Positions 2,577 through 10,003 of a DNA stretch of 64,000 nt are shown in pieces. Each line of letters opens with the position of its first letter. The first letter of the stretch is position 1. Origin of the DNA: Peptostreptococcus porci (GTDB lineage Bacteria; Bacillota; Clostridia; Peptostreptococcales; Peptostreptococcaceae); NCBI RefSeq assembly GCF_009695815.1, contig NZ_VUNE01000001.1, forward strand, positions 124,001-188,000. Reading direction: 5' to 3'. The notes beneath the pieces are model-generated. The model saw only the letters and a list, made by a program, of their open reading frames with translations, made no database searches and was not told where the DNA came from. The position numbers were made by a program, and so were the translations under genes.

Positions 2577-3458
2577 ATGAATAAAAGGCTTTCGTCACAT
2601 AAAGCTACTATGGAAATTGTAAAAAAGCATGAATTTAGATTTAATAAGAGTCTGGGTCAAAATTTTCTAATTGACGATAATATTATAGATAAAATAATAT
2701 CAGGATCTGGTGTGAAAGTTGGAGATAAGGTTATTGAAGTTGGTCCTGGTATTGGAACCTTAACCAGAGAAATTGCGGCTAGAGCAGATAAGGTTATGGC
2801 TGTTGAAATAGATAAGAATCTTATTCCAATTTTGAAGGACACAATGGAGGATTATGAAAATTTCAATGTTGTAAATGAAGATATCCTCAAAGCTGATATT
2901 AAAGGATTGGTAGAAGAGCATCTAGATGGTGGTCCGGTGAAATTGATAGCAAATTTGCCATATTATATAACTACTCCAATTATCATGAGATTTTTGGAAG
3001 AAGGGATAAATGTGACAGATATAGTAGTCATGGTTCAAAAGGAGGTCGCTGAAAGGATGAATGCATCTCCTGGTGGAAAAGATTTTGGTGCTCTTTCAGT
3101 TGCTGTGCAGTATTACTGTGATACAGAGATAATTGCAAAGGTGCCAAGACATATGTTTGTTCCTCAACCAAATGTGGATTCAATCGTGATAGCATTGAGA
3201 GTTAGAGGTGAAAAAAAATACGATGTTGATAATGAGGAATTGTTTTTCAAGGTTGTCAAAGCAGCTTTCGGTCAAAGGAGGAAAACTCTTCTGAACTCTA
3301 TTTCTAGCATGGGTGTCTTGGACAAAAAAGTGGTATCTCAGATATTGCTAGAGTCAAAAATTGACGAGAAAAGAAGAGGAGAGACTCTTAGTCTTGACGA
3401 GTTTGCAGTTCTCTCTAATAACATCAATAGAGCTGTAAAGGAGGGAAGTAATGTTTAA
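2577..3458 (+). CDS. rsmA: 16S rRNA (adenine1518-N6/adenine1519-N6)-dimethyltransferase
   Basis: KsgA/RsmA dimethylates two adjacent adenosines in the 3' terminal hairpin of 16S rRNA late in 30S assembly, using S-adenosylmethionine. Visible motifs are SLGQNFL near the N-terminus, the SAM-binding VIEVGPGIGTLT, the acidic end of strand 2 (VEID), and the catalytic NLPYYITTPII. The length of about 293 residues is normal. The preferred start is the ATG at 2577 with GGTGAG seven bases upstream; a GTG at 2565 in frame overlaps rnmV. Its last bases overlap the start of the next gene by eight bases. Confidence 0.95.
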   Translation: MNKRLSSHKATMEIVKKHEFRFNKSLGQNFLIDDNIIDKIISGSGVKVGDKVIEVGPGIGTLTREIAARADKVMAVEIDKNLIPILKDTMEDYENFNVVNEDILKADIKGLVEEHLDGGPVKLIANLPYYITTPIIMRFLEEGINVTDIVVMVQKEVAERMNASPGGKDFGALSVAVQYYCDTEIIAKVPRHMFVPQPNVDSIVIALRVRGEKKYDVDNEELFFKVVKAAFGQRRKTLLNSISSMGVLDKKVVSQILLESKIDEKRRGETLSLDEFAVLSNNINRAVKEGSNV

Positions 3459-4287
3459 TAAGCTGTCGAAATTAAACAAAACTTTGTTACTTCTACTAAT
3501 CATCATACTGTTCTTTGTAATTTACTTTTTTTCATTTAAGCTTTCTAGAAACTATATTCAAAGTAAAACTGGAGAAGATGTTGTTTCTATAGATACGAGG
3601 GGTGAGAAAAGCAAAATAGAGGAAGATATCGAGCTTAGAAACAAGGCAGAAAGCAAAATGCAGCCATTGCAGAAATTTAATCAAAGTAAGAAGCTATTTA
3701 TTTCTGATGATTCTGTTGAAAATATAAAAATCGAAGGTGAAATGCTGGAGAATTTGAAGCGATTATCGACATCCTTTGTAAAGGTGAGATCTATTGAGGG
3801 CGAGTTCAATCCCCAAAATAGAGGTAATACTAATAATAATGTCAAGTTTGAAACAGATTTCAATTACTTTGTTGTAGAGAGTGATGGAAAAAAAGAGAGC
3901 TATAAGGTTCCGATTTCGGTTAAAGAAGATTTTCAAGGCATGTATAAGAGGATGATCTATACATCAGTGGATTACATAAAAAATAAAGATGGAGTCGGAG
4001 ATATAAGAGTTTATAAAGGAAATGAGGAGAAAGGTGTTTTTCCTTGGAAGAAGGATGATTTGATTAATAAAATCTTGTACAAAAGAGAGGTTGGTAAGAT
4101 CCAGCCACAAAAAGAGTTTCATAAAACAAAGACCAATTTTACAATAAAAATAGAAAAAAATGGAAATAAAATTGACATACAAACGATGGGTAAGGATTTT
4201 ATTCAGGTAACAAATAGCGATAATGTCGCATATTACGAGGTATACCAAGACCTTTATAACTACTTGGACAAAGAAGTATTTAAATAA
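3451..4287 (+). CDS. Membrane-anchored protein of unknown function
   Basis: A 278-residue protein with one N-terminal membrane helix (LLLLLIIILFFVIYFFSF, about residues 13-30) and a large polar remainder predicted outside the cell. There is no lipobox cysteine, so a membrane anchor fits better than a lipoprotein. The extracellular part is lysine-rich with alternating beta-type segments, such as KKLFISDDSVENIKIEGEM. I recognise no family. The start is clear: AGGAGGG sits seven bases before the ATG, inside the end of rsmA, so it is translated from the same message. No strong terminator follows; a T-rich run near 4318-4326 has only a weak hairpin ahead of it. Confidence 0.7.
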   Translation: MFNKLSKLNKTLLLLLIIILFFVIYFFSFKLSRNYIQSKTGEDVVSIDTRGEKSKIEEDIELRNKAESKMQPLQKFNQSKKLFISDDSVENIKIEGEMLENLKRLSTSFVKVRSIEGEFNPQNRGNTNNNVKFETDFNYFVVESDGKKESYKVPISVKEDFQGMYKRMIYTSVDYIKNKDGVGDIRVYKGNEEKGVFPWKKDDLINKILYKREVGKIQPQKEFHKTKTNFTIKIEKNGNKIDIQTMGKDFIQVTNSDNVAYYEVYQDLYNYLDKEVFK

Positions 4288-4332
4288 AAATTAAAATAAA
4301 CGCTATTAAGTTGGTTATTTTTTTATTTATGC

Positions 4333-4361
4333 TTTACACTGATAATTAATGATGATACAAT
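4333..4361 (+). promoter_or_regulatory. Promoter of the aromatic operon leader
   Basis: TTTACA (4333-4338) and TACAAT (4356-4361) are 17 bases apart, a near-consensus housekeeping sigma promoter. Transcription would begin around 4368, just upstream of the leader peptide ribosome binding site at 4374-4380. Confidence 0.7.
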
Positions 4362-4388
4362 ACTAAAAAAACGAAGGGAGAAATTGTC

Positions 4389-4520
4389 ATGAATAAGTTA
4401 AACGCACAACTAAAGTCTTACAACTATTATTACTATTTTAACTTTACTAGCAGTGGTAAGGCTTTTTCTGATGTGCAAAAACTAGATACAGTTGACTTAT
4501 TCTTAATAATGGACAATTGA
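4389..4520 (+). CDS. Tyr/Phe-rich leader peptide of the aromatic operon
   Basis: A 43-codon reading frame starting at ATG 4389 with AAGGGAG eight bases upstream and ending at TGA 4518-4520. Codons 11-19 read Y-N-Y-Y-Y-Y-F-N-F: five tyrosines and two phenylalanines in nine codons. Another Phe follows at 26 and 38. It lies between a good promoter and an intrinsic terminator, directly ahead of DAHP synthase and tyrA. This is the layout of ribosome-mediated attenuation: scarcity of charged tRNA-Tyr or tRNA-Phe would stall the ribosome at the cluster. The peptide itself probably has no function. That tyrosine and phenylalanine are the sensed signals is inferred from codon content. Confidence 0.85.
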   Translation: MNKLNAQLKSYNYYYYFNFTSSGKAFSDVQKLDTVDLFLIMDN

Positions 4521-4537
4521 TATTTTAGTATTTTAGC
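4475..4537 (+). promoter_or_regulatory. Candidate antiterminator hairpin in the aromatic leader
   Basis: Bases 4475-4494 can pair imperfectly with 4514-4537 (core CAGTTG with CAATTG, then AAAACTAG with TTTTAGT and TTTT, and outer GC with GC). The loop holds a further TTATT/AATAA pairing. The 3' arm reaches into the first three bases of the terminator stem (AGC, 4535-4537). A ribosome stalled at the Tyr/Phe codons (4419-4445) would leave this hairpin free to form, while one reaching the stop codon at 4518 would cover it. The overlap with the terminator is short, so its strength as an antiterminator needs folding calculations. Confidence 0.5.
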
Positions 4538-4566
4538 CTCTTGGATTAGCCAAGAGGCTTTTTTTT
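4535..4566 (+). terminator. Attenuator terminator of the aromatic operon
   Basis: A perfect 10-base-pair stem (AGCCTCTTGG / CCAAGAGGCT) with loop ATTAG, followed by an unbroken run of eight T. It lies between the leader peptide stop and the DAHP synthase start, so it ends transcription before the structural genes unless prevented. Confidence 0.9.
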
Positions 4567-4592
4567 ATTATTTTTTATGGAGGGATTTTGGT

Positions 4593-5603
4593 ATGATAGT
4601 CAAACTTAGAAAAAACGTAAAAGTTGAGCAAATTGAGAAGCTGATAGGATTTATTGAATCTTTGGGATTTGAAGTGGATTGTTCTTTTGGTGAGAATACA
4701 ACTCTTCTTGGATTGATAGGAGATACATCTGGACTTGATTCGAGTATTATAAAATCGTTTGAAGCTGTCGATGAAATTATCAGAATTCAAGAGCCTTACA
4801 AGAGAGCTAATAGAAAGTTCCATCCAGAGGATACTGTTGTAATTTTGGAAAATGGAACGAAAATAGGTGGTGGTAATTTTTGTTTGATAGCTGGACCTTG
4901 TTCAGTGGAGTCAGAAGAGCAAATTATCGAGGTTGCAAAAAGAGTGAAGGACTCTGGGGCAAATATATTAAGAGGAGGAGCCTTTAAACCGAGAACATCT
5001 CCATACTCCTTTCAAGGTAAGGGGGAAGTTGCTTTGAAGTTATTGTTGAAAGCAAAAGAAATTACAGGTCTGCCAATAATTTCAGAAATAATGGAAATTG
5101 GACAATTACCTCTTTTCGAAGATGTTGATATACTACAAGTTGGTGCAAGGAATATGCAGAATTTCGATTTGCTGAAGGCTCTGGGAAAACAGTCGAAGCC
5201 AGTTCTTTTGAAGAGAGGCTTATCTGCAACATATGAAGAATTGCTGATGGCTGCAGAGTATATAATGTCAGAGGGCAATGATAATGTAATACTGTGTGAG
5301 AGAGGTATAAGAACTTTTGAAACTGGAGTTAGAAATACTCTTGATATAACTGCCATTCCAGTTCTACATGAAAAAACACATCTTCCGGTTATCGTTGATC
5401 CATCACATTCATCTGGAGTATCGAGGTTAGTAAAGCCGCTTAGTTTGGCATCAGTTGGCGCTTCATGCGATGGCTTGATAATAGAGGTTCATAATGATCC
5501 AGAAAATGCATTGTGTGATGGGAATCAGTCTTTGAGACCAGATGAATTTGACGATATGGCAAGGTCAATATTTAGATTAAAGGAAGCGATGATGGTGGTT
5601 TAG
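4593..5603 (+). CDS. aroF: 3-deoxy-7-phosphoheptulonate (DAHP) synthase
   Basis: Catalyses the first committed step of the shikimate pathway, joining phosphoenolpyruvate and erythrose 4-phosphate. At 336 residues it matches the type I-beta enzymes. An N-terminal ferredoxin-like domain of about 70 residues (MIVKLRKNVKVEQIEKL onward) precedes the TIM barrel. In Thermotoga-type relatives this domain mediates feedback inhibition by tyrosine or phenylalanine. Barrel motifs include LIAGPCSVESEEQ, ILRGGAFKPRTSPYSFQG and VIVDPSHSSG. The ATG at 4593 has GGAGGG eight bases upstream. It is the first structural gene behind the attenuator, so both enzyme and operon may respond to aromatic amino acids. The symbol follows common usage for this class. 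Confidence 0.95.
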   Translation: MIVKLRKNVKVEQIEKLIGFIESLGFEVDCSFGENTTLLGLIGDTSGLDSSIIKSFEAVDEIIRIQEPYKRANRKFHPEDTVVILENGTKIGGGNFCLIAGPCSVESEEQIIEVAKRVKDSGANILRGGAFKPRTSPYSFQGKGEVALKLLLKAKEITGLPIISEIMEIGQLPLFEDVDILQVGARNMQNFDLLKALGKQSKPVLLKRGLSATYEELLMAAEYIMSEGNDNVILCERGIRTFETGVRNTLDITAIPVLHEKTHLPVIVDPSHSSGVSRLVKPLSLASVGASCDGLIIEVHNDPENALCDGNQSLRPDEFDDMARSIFRLKEAMMVV

Positions 5604-5604
5604 T

Positions 5605-6420
5605 ATGAATATAGGAATAATTGGTTTGGGTTTGATTGGAGGTTCCTTTGCCAAATCTTTGAAGAAAAATACGAATCATATGGTATTTGGATTTGATATT
5701 GATGGACAATCGGTAGACCTAGCACTAAAGGATAAGAGCATTGACTTTAAACTAGATACTGATGACTTACACAATATTGATCTTGTGATTTTGGCATTGA
5801 GACCAAAGGATGCGTTGAGATTTGTAAAAGAAAATAAAAATATTCGAGGTTGGGTGATGGATCTTTGTGGAGTGAAAAAGAATATTTCAAAGGAGCTTGA
5901 GAATTTGTCATCAAGGAATAACTTTGAATATATTGGTGCACATCCGATGGCAGGAAGAGAGATAGGGGGATATACAAGCAGTCTTGATGATTTATTTGAA
6001 GGTGCATCTATTATACTTACAAAGAGAAATATACCAAATGAAATTCTTGATATCCTTTCAGAAATGGGATTTTCTCTACAGTATTGTGATGCGGATACTC
6101 ATGATAGAATGATTGCATACACATCACAGCTATCTCATATCGTATCTAATGCTTTTGTAAAATCAAAGGTGGCTTTAAAGCATAATGGTTTTTCAGCAGA
6201 TAGTCTGAAGGATTTGACTAGAGTAGCAATGTTGGATGAGTCCATGTGGACAGAGCTGCTGCTGGAGAATGATTATATAAAAGATGAATTAGATTTTCTA
6301 ATAGATGAATTAAAAAAATACAGCGACCTTTTGGAAAAGAGGGACGAAAAAGGCTTGGAATTATTGTTGAGAGAAGGTAAAGAAAGAAGGATTTTAATGT
6401 ATCCCGGAGGTGTGAAATGA
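5605..6420 (+). CDS. tyrA: Prephenate dehydrogenase
   Basis: Oxidatively decarboxylates prephenate to 4-hydroxyphenylpyruvate, the precursor of tyrosine. The N-terminal Rossmann fold shows GLGLIGGSFAKSL; further motifs are VMDLCGVKKNI and the substrate-binding HPMAGREIGGYTSS. The helical C-terminal dimerisation domain ends the protein at 271 residues, and no ACT regulatory domain is present, so feedback control probably acts elsewhere (DAHP synthase or the leader). It starts one base after the stop of the DAHP synthase gene and its end overlaps the aroA start (ATGA-type overlap), which indicates coupled translation. Confidence 0.95.
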   Translation: MNIGIIGLGLIGGSFAKSLKKNTNHMVFGFDIDGQSVDLALKDKSIDFKLDTDDLHNIDLVILALRPKDALRFVKENKNIRGWVMDLCGVKKNISKELENLSSRNNFEYIGAHPMAGREIGGYTSSLDDLFEGASIILTKRNIPNEILDILSEMGFSLQYCDADTHDRMIAYTSQLSHIVSNAFVKSKVALKHNGFSADSLKDLTRVAMLDESMWTELLLENDYIKDELDFLIDELKKYSDLLEKRDEKGLELLLREGKERRILMYPGGVK

Positions 6421-7649
6421 GAGTAAAACCATCTAAATTAGAAGGCAGTGTCAAAGCAATACCATCAAAATCTTTCGCTCATAGGGCTCTTATTTGTGCT
6501 GCTATATCAGATGGTGTGTCGCAAATAATCTTTGATAAAACATCTGATGATATAGATGCGACGATAAATTGTCTTAGAACATTAGGTGCGAAAATTGAAA
6601 AATTTGAATCTGGAGTTAGGGTAAAGGGCATATCGAAATTAGACAATATACCTATCGTAGATTCAAAAGAAAGTGGATCTACCTTTAGATTTTTGTTGCC
6701 ACTTGCTTCTACTATTTATGGGCAGGTAATTTTCATAGGTGAAGGAAGGTTGCCGAATAGACCAATAAAGGATTTGATGGATGTGATGAAGCATAGAGGT
6801 GTGGAATTTGATTCAGAATGTTTACCGTTTAAGACAAATGGTCTATTGTCACCAGGTAGATATGAGATAAGTGGTGATGTAAGTTCACAGTACGTTTCTG
6901 GATTGTTATTTGCCGCCTTGAATTTGAATGGAAGTTCTGAAGTAATTGTAAACACAAACCTCGAATCCAAGAGCTATGTGGATATTACGGTTGAAGTAAT
7001 GAGAGCCTTTGGAGCAGATATAATTGAAAAAGGAAATAGTTTTTTAGTAAATGAATCGAAATTGAAAGCGCGATCCTATAACGTCGAAGGAGATTGGTCG
7101 AATTCTTCCTTCTTATTGGTAGCGGGAGCATTCGGAAAAGTATCTGTGAATGGATTAAATAAAGAGAGTAGTCAAGGTGACAAACAAATATTAAAAATCT
7201 TAGAGGATTTTGGTGCTGAAGTAGTCATATCTGATGAAGTTATAGTGGCATCACGTGATAGGAATCCAATAGATGTAGATTTGAAGGATATACCAGATAT
7301 GTTGCCGATATTATCGATATTGGCAGCTAGTGTTGATGGGGGTGTATCACGATTTTATAATGCATCGAGATTGAGGTTAAAAGAGAGTGACAGGATAAAG
7401 TCGACTGCTGATTTAATCACTTCACTTGGTGGAAAGGTAGAAGAAAGAGATGATGAGCTGTTGATTTATGGAACGAATGGTTTGGCAGGAGGTATTGTTG
7501 ACTCACACAATGACCATAGAATAGTAATGGCTGCGGCGATAGCTTCTACAATAAGCGAGAATGATATTGTAATTAAGAATTCAAAAGCTATAAATAAGTC
7601 ATATCCAACTTTTTTTGACGATTTTGCAGATTTGGGAGGTAAAATATGA
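6417..7649 (+). CDS. aroA: 3-phosphoshikimate 1-carboxyvinyltransferase (EPSP synthase)
   Basis: Transfers the enolpyruvyl group of phosphoenolpyruvate to shikimate 3-phosphate. The two-domain inside-out barrel is represented by PSKSFAHRALICAAI near the N-terminus, ESGSTFRFLLPLAS, GEGRLPNRPIKDLMDVM, and LRLKESDRIKSTADLI with HNDHRIVMAAAIA near the C-terminus. The length of 410 residues is slightly short of the usual 420-430 but all core motifs are present. The start overlaps tyrA by four bases and the end overlaps aroC by four bases, so tyrA-aroA-aroC are translated as a coupled chain. Confidence 0.96.
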   Translation: MRVKPSKLEGSVKAIPSKSFAHRALICAAISDGVSQIIFDKTSDDIDATINCLRTLGAKIEKFESGVRVKGISKLDNIPIVDSKESGSTFRFLLPLASTIYGQVIFIGEGRLPNRPIKDLMDVMKHRGVEFDSECLPFKTNGLLSPGRYEISGDVSSQYVSGLLFAALNLNGSSEVIVNTNLESKSYVDITVEVMRAFGADIIEKGNSFLVNESKLKARSYNVEGDWSNSSFLLVAGAFGKVSVNGLNKESSQGDKQILKILEDFGAEVVISDEVIVASRDRNPIDVDLKDIPDMLPILSILAASVDGGVSRFYNASRLRLKESDRIKSTADLITSLGGKVEERDDELLIYGTNGLAGGIVDSHNDHRIVMAAAIASTISENDIVIKNSKAINKSYPTFFDDFADLGGKI

Positions 7650-8722
7650 GTGCGACATTTGGAAATAATATTAAAACTACAGTTTTTGGTCAATCACATG
7701 GACATTATATAGGAGCTGTTGTCGACGGATTGCCACTGGGCTTTAAGATAGATATGGATAAGCTTGAAGAATTTATGCGAAGAAGGGCACCAGGAAAAAA
7801 ATATACGACAAAGAGAGTTGAAGGGGATAACGTGGAGTTTATAGCTGGAGTTGAAGATGGTACGATAATTTCCAATACAATATGTGCTGTAATAAAGAAC
7901 AAAGACCACAATTCTACTCATTACGAAATATTCAAGGATATTCCAAGACCATCTCACGCCGATTATGTAGCAAATATAAAATACAATGGATTGATGGATA
8001 TGAGAGGTTCAGGTTCGTTTTCTGGGCGATTAACAGCACCTATTTGTATTGTGGGTGGTATTGCGAAGCAGATTCTTCAAGAGAGGGGAATACAAATCGC
8101 TTCGAGGCTTAAGCAAGTTGGCTCTGAGATTGATGAAGCAATTGATATCGCAAATCCAGATATGGAAGTGCTTGAAGAAATAAATCGAAAAAATGTTCCT
8201 GTTATTTCAGAGAAGGTCGAAGCTAGAATAGAGAAATTATTAGAAGGCATAAGGGAAGAAAAAGACTCAATTGGTGCCAAGATAGAATGTTTTGCGACCG
8301 GAATTCCAATCGGTCTGGGAGAACCAAATCAGGATGGCATTGAATCTATTTTGTCGAGTAGAATTTTTTCTATTCCTGGAGTCAGGGCTATAGAGTTTGG
8401 ATTAGGTGTTGAGGCTGCATATATGAAAGGCTCTGAGCATAATGATGAATTTAAAATTAGAGATAAGCAAGTATCAACTATGACTAATAATGCAGGTGGA
8501 ATTGTCGGTGGGATAAGTAACGGCATGCCGATTAACTTTACTGTAACTATGAAACCAACGGCATCAATTGGAAAGCAACAGAGGTCATTTTCTATGTCAA
8601 AAAAGGAGTCTAAATATTTGCAAATAGAGGGAAGACACGATCCATGTATAGCTATTAGAGCATTGCCGGTTATCGAGGCTGTATGTGCAATTGTGCTTCT
8701 GGATTTGATAGATATTTTATAA
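7646..8722 (+). CDS. aroC: Chorismate synthase
   Basis: Converts EPSP to chorismate, the branch point for aromatic amino acids and other aromatics, using reduced FMN. Family signatures are visible: FGQSHGHYIGAVVDGLP at the N-terminus (GQSHG instead of the commoner GESHG), FMRRRAPGK, DMRGSGSFSGRLTAP, and near the end the FMN-binding GRHDPCIAIRALPVIEA. The length of 358 residues is normal. The ATG at 7646 overlaps the aroA stop, with GGGAGGT seven bases upstream. Confidence 0.96.
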   Translation: MSATFGNNIKTTVFGQSHGHYIGAVVDGLPLGFKIDMDKLEEFMRRRAPGKKYTTKRVEGDNVEFIAGVEDGTIISNTICAVIKNKDHNSTHYEIFKDIPRPSHADYVANIKYNGLMDMRGSGSFSGRLTAPICIVGGIAKQILQERGIQIASRLKQVGSEIDEAIDIANPDMEVLEEINRKNVPVISEKVEARIEKLLEGIREEKDSIGAKIECFATGIPIGLGEPNQDGIESILSSRIFSIPGVRAIEFGLGVEAAYMKGSEHNDEFKIRDKQVSTMTNNAGGIVGGISNGMPINFTVTMKPTASIGKQQRSFSMSKKESKYLQIEGRHDPCIAIRALPVIEAVCAIVLLDLIDIL

Positions 8723-8764
8723 AGGCTGTGATTATATTTTTTAGGTAATTATGTGGGGTATGAT

Positions 8765-10003
8765 ATGAAATACGGATTATTGGGAAGAAAGCTGGGTCAT
8801 AGCTTTTCGAAAAAAATACACAATTTGATAGATAGATACGACTATGATCTGTATGAAAAGGAGCTGGATCAAATAGAGCAATTTGTTAATGGAGATATAA
8901 CGGGCTTCAATATTACTATACCATACAAGATAGAAGTCATGAAATATATTGATGAAATGACCAACAGAGCTAAGAAAATAGGATGTATCAATACAGTGAT
9001 TAAAAAAAATGGAAAGGTAATAGGCGACAATACGGATTATTTTGGATTCGAGTATATGCTAAATAGTTTGGAAATCGGCGATGTGAAATCTGCTTTAATT
9101 CTTGGAGATGGTGCAACATCTATGACAGTGGGGGCAGTGCTAGATGATAGAGGTATACCGTACACCAAGCTATCCAGAAAAACAGAACCCTACTATTCAA
9201 GGTACTTGGATTACAAAGATGTCGAGTTGCTGATAAATGCCACTCCTGTCGGTATGTATCCAAATAATGGAGAAAGGCTAATAGATATAAGTGAATTCAA
9301 TAATCTAAAAGGAGTTATTGACGTGGTTTATAATCCAATGTGTACAAAGCTGCTTTTTGACGCAAAGGAAAAGAACATAAAATGTTGCAATGGACTTCCT
9401 ATGTTGGTTGCACAGGCTGCTGAGGCATATAATGTATTTTGTGGAAATAAGGTTGAGGATAGAAAAATGAAGAGGATAATAGAAAAGCTTTCAGTTGAAG
9501 GAAATATAGTGTTGATTGGAATGCCTAGTACTGGAAAATCTACTATAGGAAGAATAATTTCAAAAAATACAGATAAAATTTTGGTAGATTTTGATGAGGA
9601 AATTGTAAGAAAAACTGGTAAGAGTATTGAACGAATTTTTTCAGAAGATGGAGAAGCATATTTTAGGAAGCTAGAAAGTGAAATGTGTGGAGAATTTGGG
9701 AAAAAAAATAATCTAGTAATAGCCACAGGTGGAGGAGTGGTTACTCAAATTGAAAATTACGAGAGTCTAAAGCAAAATGGTAAAATATATCTATTAAAGA
9801 GAAATTTGGAAGAACTTGAGCTAGAAGGCAGACCACTTTTAAAGGATTTTGATAGCGTTTTGAGATTATGGGAGGATAGAAAGGACAGATATCAAAGCTT
9901 TTCCGACAAAGAGGTTGAAAATATTACGATAATGGAAGCCTCAAAAAAGATAATTGATGATTTTTACGGATATGATTATACAAAATGTGAGAATAGAATA
10001 TAA
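8765..10003 (+). CDS. aroEK: Bifunctional shikimate dehydrogenase / shikimate kinase (AroE-AroK fusion)
   Basis: Two consecutive pathway enzymes in one chain. Residues 1 to about 235 are shikimate dehydrogenase: LGHSFSKKIHNLI, substrate-binding GFNITIPYKIEVM with the catalytic Lys, NTDYFGF with the catalytic Asp, and LINATPVGMYP. The NADP loop reads GDGATSMTV, a variant of the usual GAGGA-type motif. From about residue 242 comes shikimate kinase: Walker A GMPSTGKSTIG, LVDFDEEIV, the substrate-binding Arg in FRKLESE, and VIATGGGVV. The start is the ATG at 8765; a GTG at 8753 is in frame but overlaps the ribosome binding site. Order in the pathway would be dehydroshikimate to shikimate to shikimate 3-phosphate. 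It is the last gene of the operon. Confidence 0.94.
   Translation: MKYGLLGRKLGHSFSKKIHNLIDRYDYDLYEKELDQIEQFVNGDITGFNITIPYKIEVMKYIDEMTNRAKKIGCINTVIKKNGKVIGDNTDYFGFEYMLNSLEIGDVKSALILGDGATSMTVGAVLDDRGIPYTKLSRKTEPYYSRYLDYKDVELLINATPVGMYPNNGERLIDISEFNNLKGVIDVVYNPMCTKLLFDAKEKNIKCCNGLPMLVAQAAEAYNVFCGNKVEDRKMKRIIEKLSVEGNIVLIGMPSTGKSTIGRIISKNTDKILVDFDEEIVRKTGKSIERIFSEDGEAYFRKLESEMCGEFGKKNNLVIATGGGVVTQIENYESLKQNGKIYLLKRNLEELELEGRPLLKDFDSVLRLWEDRKDRYQSFSDKEVENITIMEASKKIIDDFYGYDYTKCENRI

Follow-up and report, generated by a model that had tools for sequence, protein, structure and literature searches.

The leader of the aroF operon of Peptostreptococcus porci very probably attenuates transcription through a translating ribosome, as trp and phe leaders do, and probably switches on the aromatic amino-acid genes only when Tyr or Phe is short. 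The window analysed here is a stretch of 64,000 nucleotides, and coordinates are positions within it. An initial annotation of this DNA had proposed ribosome-mediated attenuation sensing Tyr and Phe, and matching of spacer to terminator arm, locus by locus in 91 loci, now supports that proposal. A short ORF with a run of end-product codons lies upstream of a biosynthetic operon, and an intrinsic terminator is predicted between the leader ORF and the first gene. Across the set of loci, a predicted antiterminator draws on the 5' arm of the terminator and becomes available when the ribosome stalls, though not when it runs on to the stop codon, and pairing of segments 1 and 2 would free the terminator when translation does not occur; these four properties are those by which an attenuator is recognized. 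Clostridia are usually described through T-boxes and repressors. If the reading is true, Tyr/Phe attenuation at the shikimate entry is a frequent control in Clostridia and accounts for the first pathway enzyme answering two end products at once; about 100 natural variants, plus a conserved hairpin, would then be available for testing classical attenuator predictions.

Leader and operon in the window

The leader region has a promoter-like site, a Shine-Dalgarno sequence, an ORF and a terminator, in that order, followed by aroF-tyrA-aroA-aroC-aroEK. The features are as follows.

4333..4361, + strand: promoter-like site of sigma-A type, TTTACA-17-TACAAT with TG, 10/12 consensus matches (consensus match only)
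4374..4380, + strand: Shine-Dalgarno-like AAGGGAG of the leader peptide, read from the sequence, 8 nt before the ATG
4382..4518, + strand: predicted lid helix over the leader start, 4382-4388 with 4512-4518 and 4391-4401 with 4492-4502 (fold, alignment)
4389..4520, + strand: leader peptide ORF, 43 codons (ORF translation and alignment with the leaders of 15 other loci)
4412..4421, + strand: segment 1 (AAAGUCUUAC), predicted to pair with 4456-4465 in the untranslated leader (fold and segment 1 x segment 2 matching, 91 loci)
4419..4445, + strand: regulatory codons 11-19, Y-N-Y-Y-Y-Y-F-N-F, aromatic character kept with Y/F exchange in the clade
4442..4461, + strand: embedded hairpin, CUUUACU (4442-4448) with GGUAAGG (4455-4461) (folds and pair counts in 40 loci)
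4467..4545, + strand: modelled antiterminator, segment 2 (4467-4494) with 4514-4545, using terminator-arm bases 4536-4538 and 4541-4544 (models and own-versus-other complementarity between loci)
4518..4520, + strand: leader stop codon, within the antiterminator 3' strand
4535..4566, + strand: predicted intrinsic terminator, 10-bp stem 4535-4559 and T tract (seven T) 4560-4566
4593..5603, + strand: aroF, long-form DAHP synthase with a ferredoxin-like domain (profile matches)
5605..6420, + strand: tyrA, prephenate dehydrogenase (profile matches)
6417..7649, + strand: aroA, EPSP synthase (profile match)
7646..8722, + strand: aroC, chorismate synthase (profile match)
8753..10003, + strand: aroE-aroK fusion (profile matches)

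ORF and site scans bore out the first description of a promoter, a 43-codon ORF and a terminator, in that order, before DAHP synthase and tyrA, with the terminator at the coordinates first given, and translation places the aromatic run at exactly codons 11-19, as first described. The leader peptide (43 aa) reads MNKLNAQLKSYNYYYYFNFTSSGKAFSDVQKLDTVDLFLIMDN. Seven promoter-like sites occur in 3800-5000 compared with 4.7 in shuffles, which makes this site weak evidence by itself, and 4535-4566 is the sole terminator-like site in the same interval (mean of 0.4 in shuffles). GGAG precedes the leader in 15/16 loci of the clade defined below, with L169 as the exception. The antiterminator first drawn at 4475-4537 survives as the inner part of the model, for which the span itself is 4467-4545, and the stop codon does lie inside it, as had been claimed. 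The gene upstream of the leader (3451-4287) has the same direction as the aroF operon and has no NCBIfam match and no Pfam match over the cut-off.

Aromatic leaders at other DAHP-synthase loci

Loci were taken from named genomes (the best 80 of 583 DAHP-synthase matches) and from the relatives of three genomes, namely the window's own, that of Anaerococcus hydrogenalis and a Tissierellia MAG, so that the sample consists of best hits and relatives and is non-random. From 153 loci, 22 were dropped (12 short-form, 7 duplicates and 3 with short upstream DNA) and 131 were kept. A leader was defined as an ORF 10-70 codons long that has six or more Y/F/W in a stretch of nine codons and lies at most 350 nt upstream. 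By this definition an aromatic leader ORF occurs in 100/131 loci, compared with 7/131 reverse strands and 59/2620 shuffles, and a terminator lies within the last 250 nt in 109/131 loci compared with 37/655 shuffles. A low score (<5) was obtained in 18/131 loci, including L088, L090, L092, L105 and L107 of the same family. Both Tyr and Phe are present in 97 of the 100 runs, and 23 include Trp as well. Aromatic leaders are thus frequent at aroF in the Clostridia examined, and are neither universal nor a local oddity. A search of 291 genomes of the class with the exact core-motif pattern, which is too strict, returned the window itself alone (1/291). Nine short-form DAHP-synthase loci of the genus include none with a terminator in the 450 nt before the match, by the rule used here, and none with leader and terminator together (0/9), with one of them (L116) having an ORF with five aromatic residues.

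Predicted switch pairings compared across loci

Folding with the ribosome masked (footprint assumed to be 13 nt) was applied to 91 loci. With the ribosome stalled in the middle of the run, the terminator 5' arm is predicted to be paired upstream with a mean probability of 0.735, compared with 0.547 for a shuffled spacer, and 83/91 loci lie above the mean of their own shuffles. The corresponding figure for a ribosome placed at the stop codon is 0.297, for a shorter remaining RNA and with no shuffle control, and the 5' arm pairing is still >0.5 in 24/91 loci. Because the stop-state figure partly reflects the smaller amount of RNA, complementarity within each locus was compared with that between loci, with bulges allowed and row and column means removed.

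Each spacer matches the terminator arm of its own locus better than those of other loci. The residual is −3.93 kcal/mol across 91 loci (reached by 0/20000 permutations), −3.92 with one locus per arm cluster (n=51, 0/20000), −2.65 in 24 hairpin-family loci (0/20000) and −1.51 in the window clade (n=15, 5/20000; −2.11 for its 6 clusters, 109/20000). Four control pairings are null, at −0.30 to +0.36, with the lowest (spacer x 3' arm) reached by 263/5000 permutations. Permutation within three GC classes shifts the null mean to −0.92, and permutation within clade, hairpin family and remaining loci shifts it to −0.62, which indicates that part of the signal is common within groups; the observed value is reached by 0/5000 permutations in both cases. 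The complementarity is located between the stall edge and the stop codon (−2.77 in the 71/91 loci that are long enough, 0/5000) and disappears downstream of a ribosome that has reached the stop (+0.34, 80/91 loci).

Segment 1, defined as the 40 nt before the run plus its first codon, also matches segment 2 of its own locus (−3.20 in 91 loci and −2.53 in 51 clusters, 0/5000 each). The 60 nt that end 15 nt before the run have no clear match with segment 2 (−0.47, 299/5000; clusters −0.27, 1305/5000), which places the 1:2 signal close to the run. Compensation is visible between individual loci, for example in L080 versus L014, and an ungapped spacer-arm duplex tested per locus reaches p≤0.05 in 13/40. 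The 1:2, 2:3 and 3:4 pairings predicted in this way are the classical attenuator set.

The window sequence folded alone

The leader at 4368-4570 folds better than 200/200 shuffles (z −3.84). The antiterminator region at 4440-4545 is no more stable than its shuffles (z −0.04, 94/200 as good), and the ungapped spacer-arm duplex of the window is no better than chance (p 0.945). Its own predicted antiterminator duplex is weak and interrupted by bulges; the stalled-ribosome model pairs 4467-4471 with 4541-4545 and 4473-4494 with 4514-4538. It is therefore comparison between loci that argues for the antiterminator, and the window sequence by itself points to it weakly. When the full terminator is present, its pairs have probabilities of 0.85-1.0 at all four ribosome positions, stalled included. 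The terminator thus wins at equilibrium, and the choice must be kinetic and made during transcription. Folded without a ribosome, the leader pairs 4412-4421 with 4456-4465, and the lid helix covers the start codon. Of the 16 clade loci, the window and L084 alone have the C-terminal peptide extension that bears this helix.

Proposed mechanism

Transcription would start near 4368, with a ribosome following RNA polymerase and translating the leader peptide. A shortage of charged tRNA-Tyr or tRNA-Phe would stall this ribosome in codons 11-19, where it would cover segment 1. Segment 2 (from 4467) would then be free to pair with 4514-4545, taking bases of the terminator 5' arm, and with the antiterminator formed RNA polymerase would continue into aroF-tyrA-aroA-aroC-aroEK. 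When Tyr and Phe are both plentiful, the ribosome would reach the stop codon at 4518 and cover the antiterminator 3' strand, so that the terminator at 4535-4566 could form and transcription would end. Without a ribosome, segment 1, together with the lid helix in this species, would hold segment 2, and the terminator would form in this case too. Comparison between loci supports the aromatic codons, the predicted terminator and the 1:2 and 2:3 complementarity; promoter use, translation, stalling and termination are steps that we infer.

The window clade and its embedded hairpin

An alignable leader is common to 16 loci, among them that of A. hydrogenalis, which form one group in the DAHP-synthase tree with an SH-aLRT of 91 (below the 95 mark). 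Alignment with relatives had been suggested as a check, with conservation of the aromatic run and divergence elsewhere as the supporting outcome; within this clade the run is kept with exchanges between Y and F and both peptide ends diverge. The Thr, Gly/Ser, Lys and Ala that follow the run are kept in 15-16 of the 16 loci, mostly because their codons write the arms of a hairpin, CUUUACY...RGUAAGG. This hairpin occurs in 40/131 loci, comprising the 16 of the clade and 24 of the remaining 115. Each of the 40 loci has standard pairs at all seven positions, a result favoured by a search expression that fixed much of the motif and left pair 7 free and pair 5 partly free. Pair 5 changes from A-U to G-C in 3 loci, and pair 7 is C-G in 20, U-A in 15 and U-G in 5. 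L057, whose peptide ends at GKA, keeps the RNA motif, as does L050, which has a stop codon inside GGUAAGG.

These kept residues are also what an arrest peptide would predict, that is, a nascent chain of the kind represented by TnaC and the Erm leader, which together with a small molecule stalls the ribosome in place of tRNA shortage. The conservation of the non-aromatic T, G/S, K and A in 15-16/16 clade members suits that reading. Y and F, however, exchange within the run, the conserved codons for T, G/S and K form hairpin arms that change together (ACC with GGT in L003), and in L057 and L050 the RNA motif outlasts the peptide; we consider an arrest peptide very unlikely.

The hairpin could alternatively be the ligand or protein site of a riboswitch or protein-bound RNA that sets the terminator, with the ORF incidental. 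It is conserved in 40 loci, partly to a degree that coding does not demand, as such an element would be. Aromatic ORFs are nevertheless commoner than the hairpin (100/131 versus 40/131), and the terminator complementarity falls in the stretch crossed by a finishing ribosome. No Rfam family matches the window at its gathering score, and 4300-4620 has only 18 weak matches, at E up to 10, none of them near the cut-off. We judge this explanation to be very improbable. A spurious ORF in A+T-rich DNA beside the ordinary terminator of the upstream gene, which the frequency of TTT and TAT codons in such DNA and the shared direction of that gene might suggest, is rejected by the shuffle and reverse-strand controls on leader ORFs and by complementarity that is locus-specific and null in control stretches, and its probability is close to negligible.

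Within the attenuator reading, leaders with CUUUACY...RGUAAGG might tentatively be set apart as a structured class of their own, in which the same RNA would serve both as Tyr/Phe codons and as a hairpin with a separate function, such as holding RNA polymerase for the ribosome or metering stall depth; we lean somewhat against this separation. As a candidate pause site, for which the consensus G-10 Y-1 G+1 was used, the position after the hairpin matches in 24/40 loci compared with 16.3 expected, and in 4/16 of the window clade, and such a role is not claimed.

Comparison with known systems

The trp and pheA operons of Escherichia coli have leader-peptide attenuators, the latter represented in Rfam by Phe_leader (RF01859). 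Like these, the window has a short leader peptide with end-product codons, 1:2, 2:3 and 3:4 segments (as predicted here) and a terminator before the genes. It differs from them in its Gram-positive host, in preceding an aroF-tyrA shikimate operon, in sensing Tyr and Phe together, as proposed here, and in the hairpin inside the codon run. Phe_leader scores 14.7 bits in the window (E 7.3) against a gathering score of 55.

T-boxes (RF00230) share with attenuators tRNA charging as signal and terminator read-through as output, and sense uncharged tRNA directly, without a leader peptide. The T-box model does not reach its gathering score anywhere in the window and is absent from the 18 weak matches in 4300-4620. 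As a positive control, the window's genome has 17 T-box matches, 16 of them over the cut-off, with one before pheS. As read here, the organism would use a T-box for its Phe-tRNA ligase gene and a leader peptide for its shikimate operon. Another T-box of this genome, at G000:C1:923069-923313, precedes an ORF that from its sequence gives the impression of a small membrane protein; this downstream frame has no NCBIfam match at 1e-10.

An element described upstream of aroF is the uORFC-13-1 motif, with 24 representatives in Acholeplasma and environmental sequences (PMC8632094). According to the available part of that source, it resembles the window in having a uORF with Phe codon(s) and an intrinsic terminator before aroF; it is reported there only from Acholeplasma and environmental sequences, and the likeness is one of description alone. 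The same source notes that attenuation of E. coli aroF was once hypothesised, in 1980 (PMC8632094). Classical leader-peptide attenuation is also described in Firmicutes for His leaders of the Bacillus cereus group, Peptostreptococcaceae (the window's own family) and Erysipelotrichales (PMC9413887, PMC2965389, PMC4833913). Those attenuators differ from the window in their His codons and his genes, and the available portions of the three papers yielded no aromatic leader; the main text of one (PMC2965389) has no mention of aroF, aromatic, phenylalanine or tyrosine. In another Gram-positive example, a Leu-rich attenuator peptide is reported for branched-chain genes in Staphylococcus aureus (PMC5794164), which resembles the window as leader-peptide attenuation and differs in its Leu codons and branched-chain operon. 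In the B. cereus group, according to a T-box survey, tyrosine biosynthesis is preceded by a T-box (PMC2494555); the accessible text of that survey is without aroF and DAHP, and aroF is absent from the main text of a Clostridioides difficile start-site paper (PMC7438776). The open-access literature, represented mostly by listings, yielded nothing on Tyr/Phe leaders that precede aroF in Clostridia.

The nearest elements that we have seen in print are the Acholeplasma aroF uORF and the Firmicutes His-leader attenuators. As far as seen, what is new is the combination of gene, amino-acid pair and lineage, in an attenuator of the classical kind. The attenuator had been called unexpected in a low-GC Gram-positive. 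The 17 T-box matches in this genome agree with that view, whereas aromatic leaders in 100 of the 131 loci examined and the His leaders already published from Firmicutes (PMC9413887, in the part available) count against it.

Origin of the operon and other lineages

Long-form DAHP synthase occurs in two of nine genus genomes searched, that of the window and G007 (95% identical), and the other seven have the short form only. In the tree, the window's DAHP synthase groups with Tissierellia and Anaerococcus, and a separate group takes in 27/28 order and family loci (L085-L112). Among these 27, a different leader core (W-G-F / S-A-G, by expression) occurs in 15, another aromatic leader in 4 and none in 8. 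The window operon (4593-10003) may thus have been acquired horizontally, and we infer that operon and attenuator moved together. The order aroF-tyrA-aroA-aroC-aroEK is common to 4/6 donor-like genome regions (L172, L173, L174 and L177); the L176 region ends after tyrA, and in A. hydrogenalis (L175) aroC directly follows aroF. The four regions with the common order have gaps of ~1.1 kb between tyrA and aroA and between aroC and aroEK, with room for one gene each, and the window operon is without them (6417; 8722-8753).

A core of the form W-G-F/Y...S-A-G-Y, with Trp among Tyr/Phe, was observed in order relatives that include L087, L089, L091, L097, L098, L100, L101, L108, L109 and L112, and these leaders could possibly be three-amino-acid sensors. 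Aromatic leaders also accompany the DAHP synthases of L042, L056 and L069, from MAGs labelled Planctomycetia, Treponema and Lentisphaerae, respectively; these enzymes group with those of Clostridia, which would reflect either gene transfer or mis-binning. G414 (L169/L171), G016, G036 and G060 each have two adjacent long-form DAHP-synthase genes, and in G046 two such genes are ~7 kb apart.
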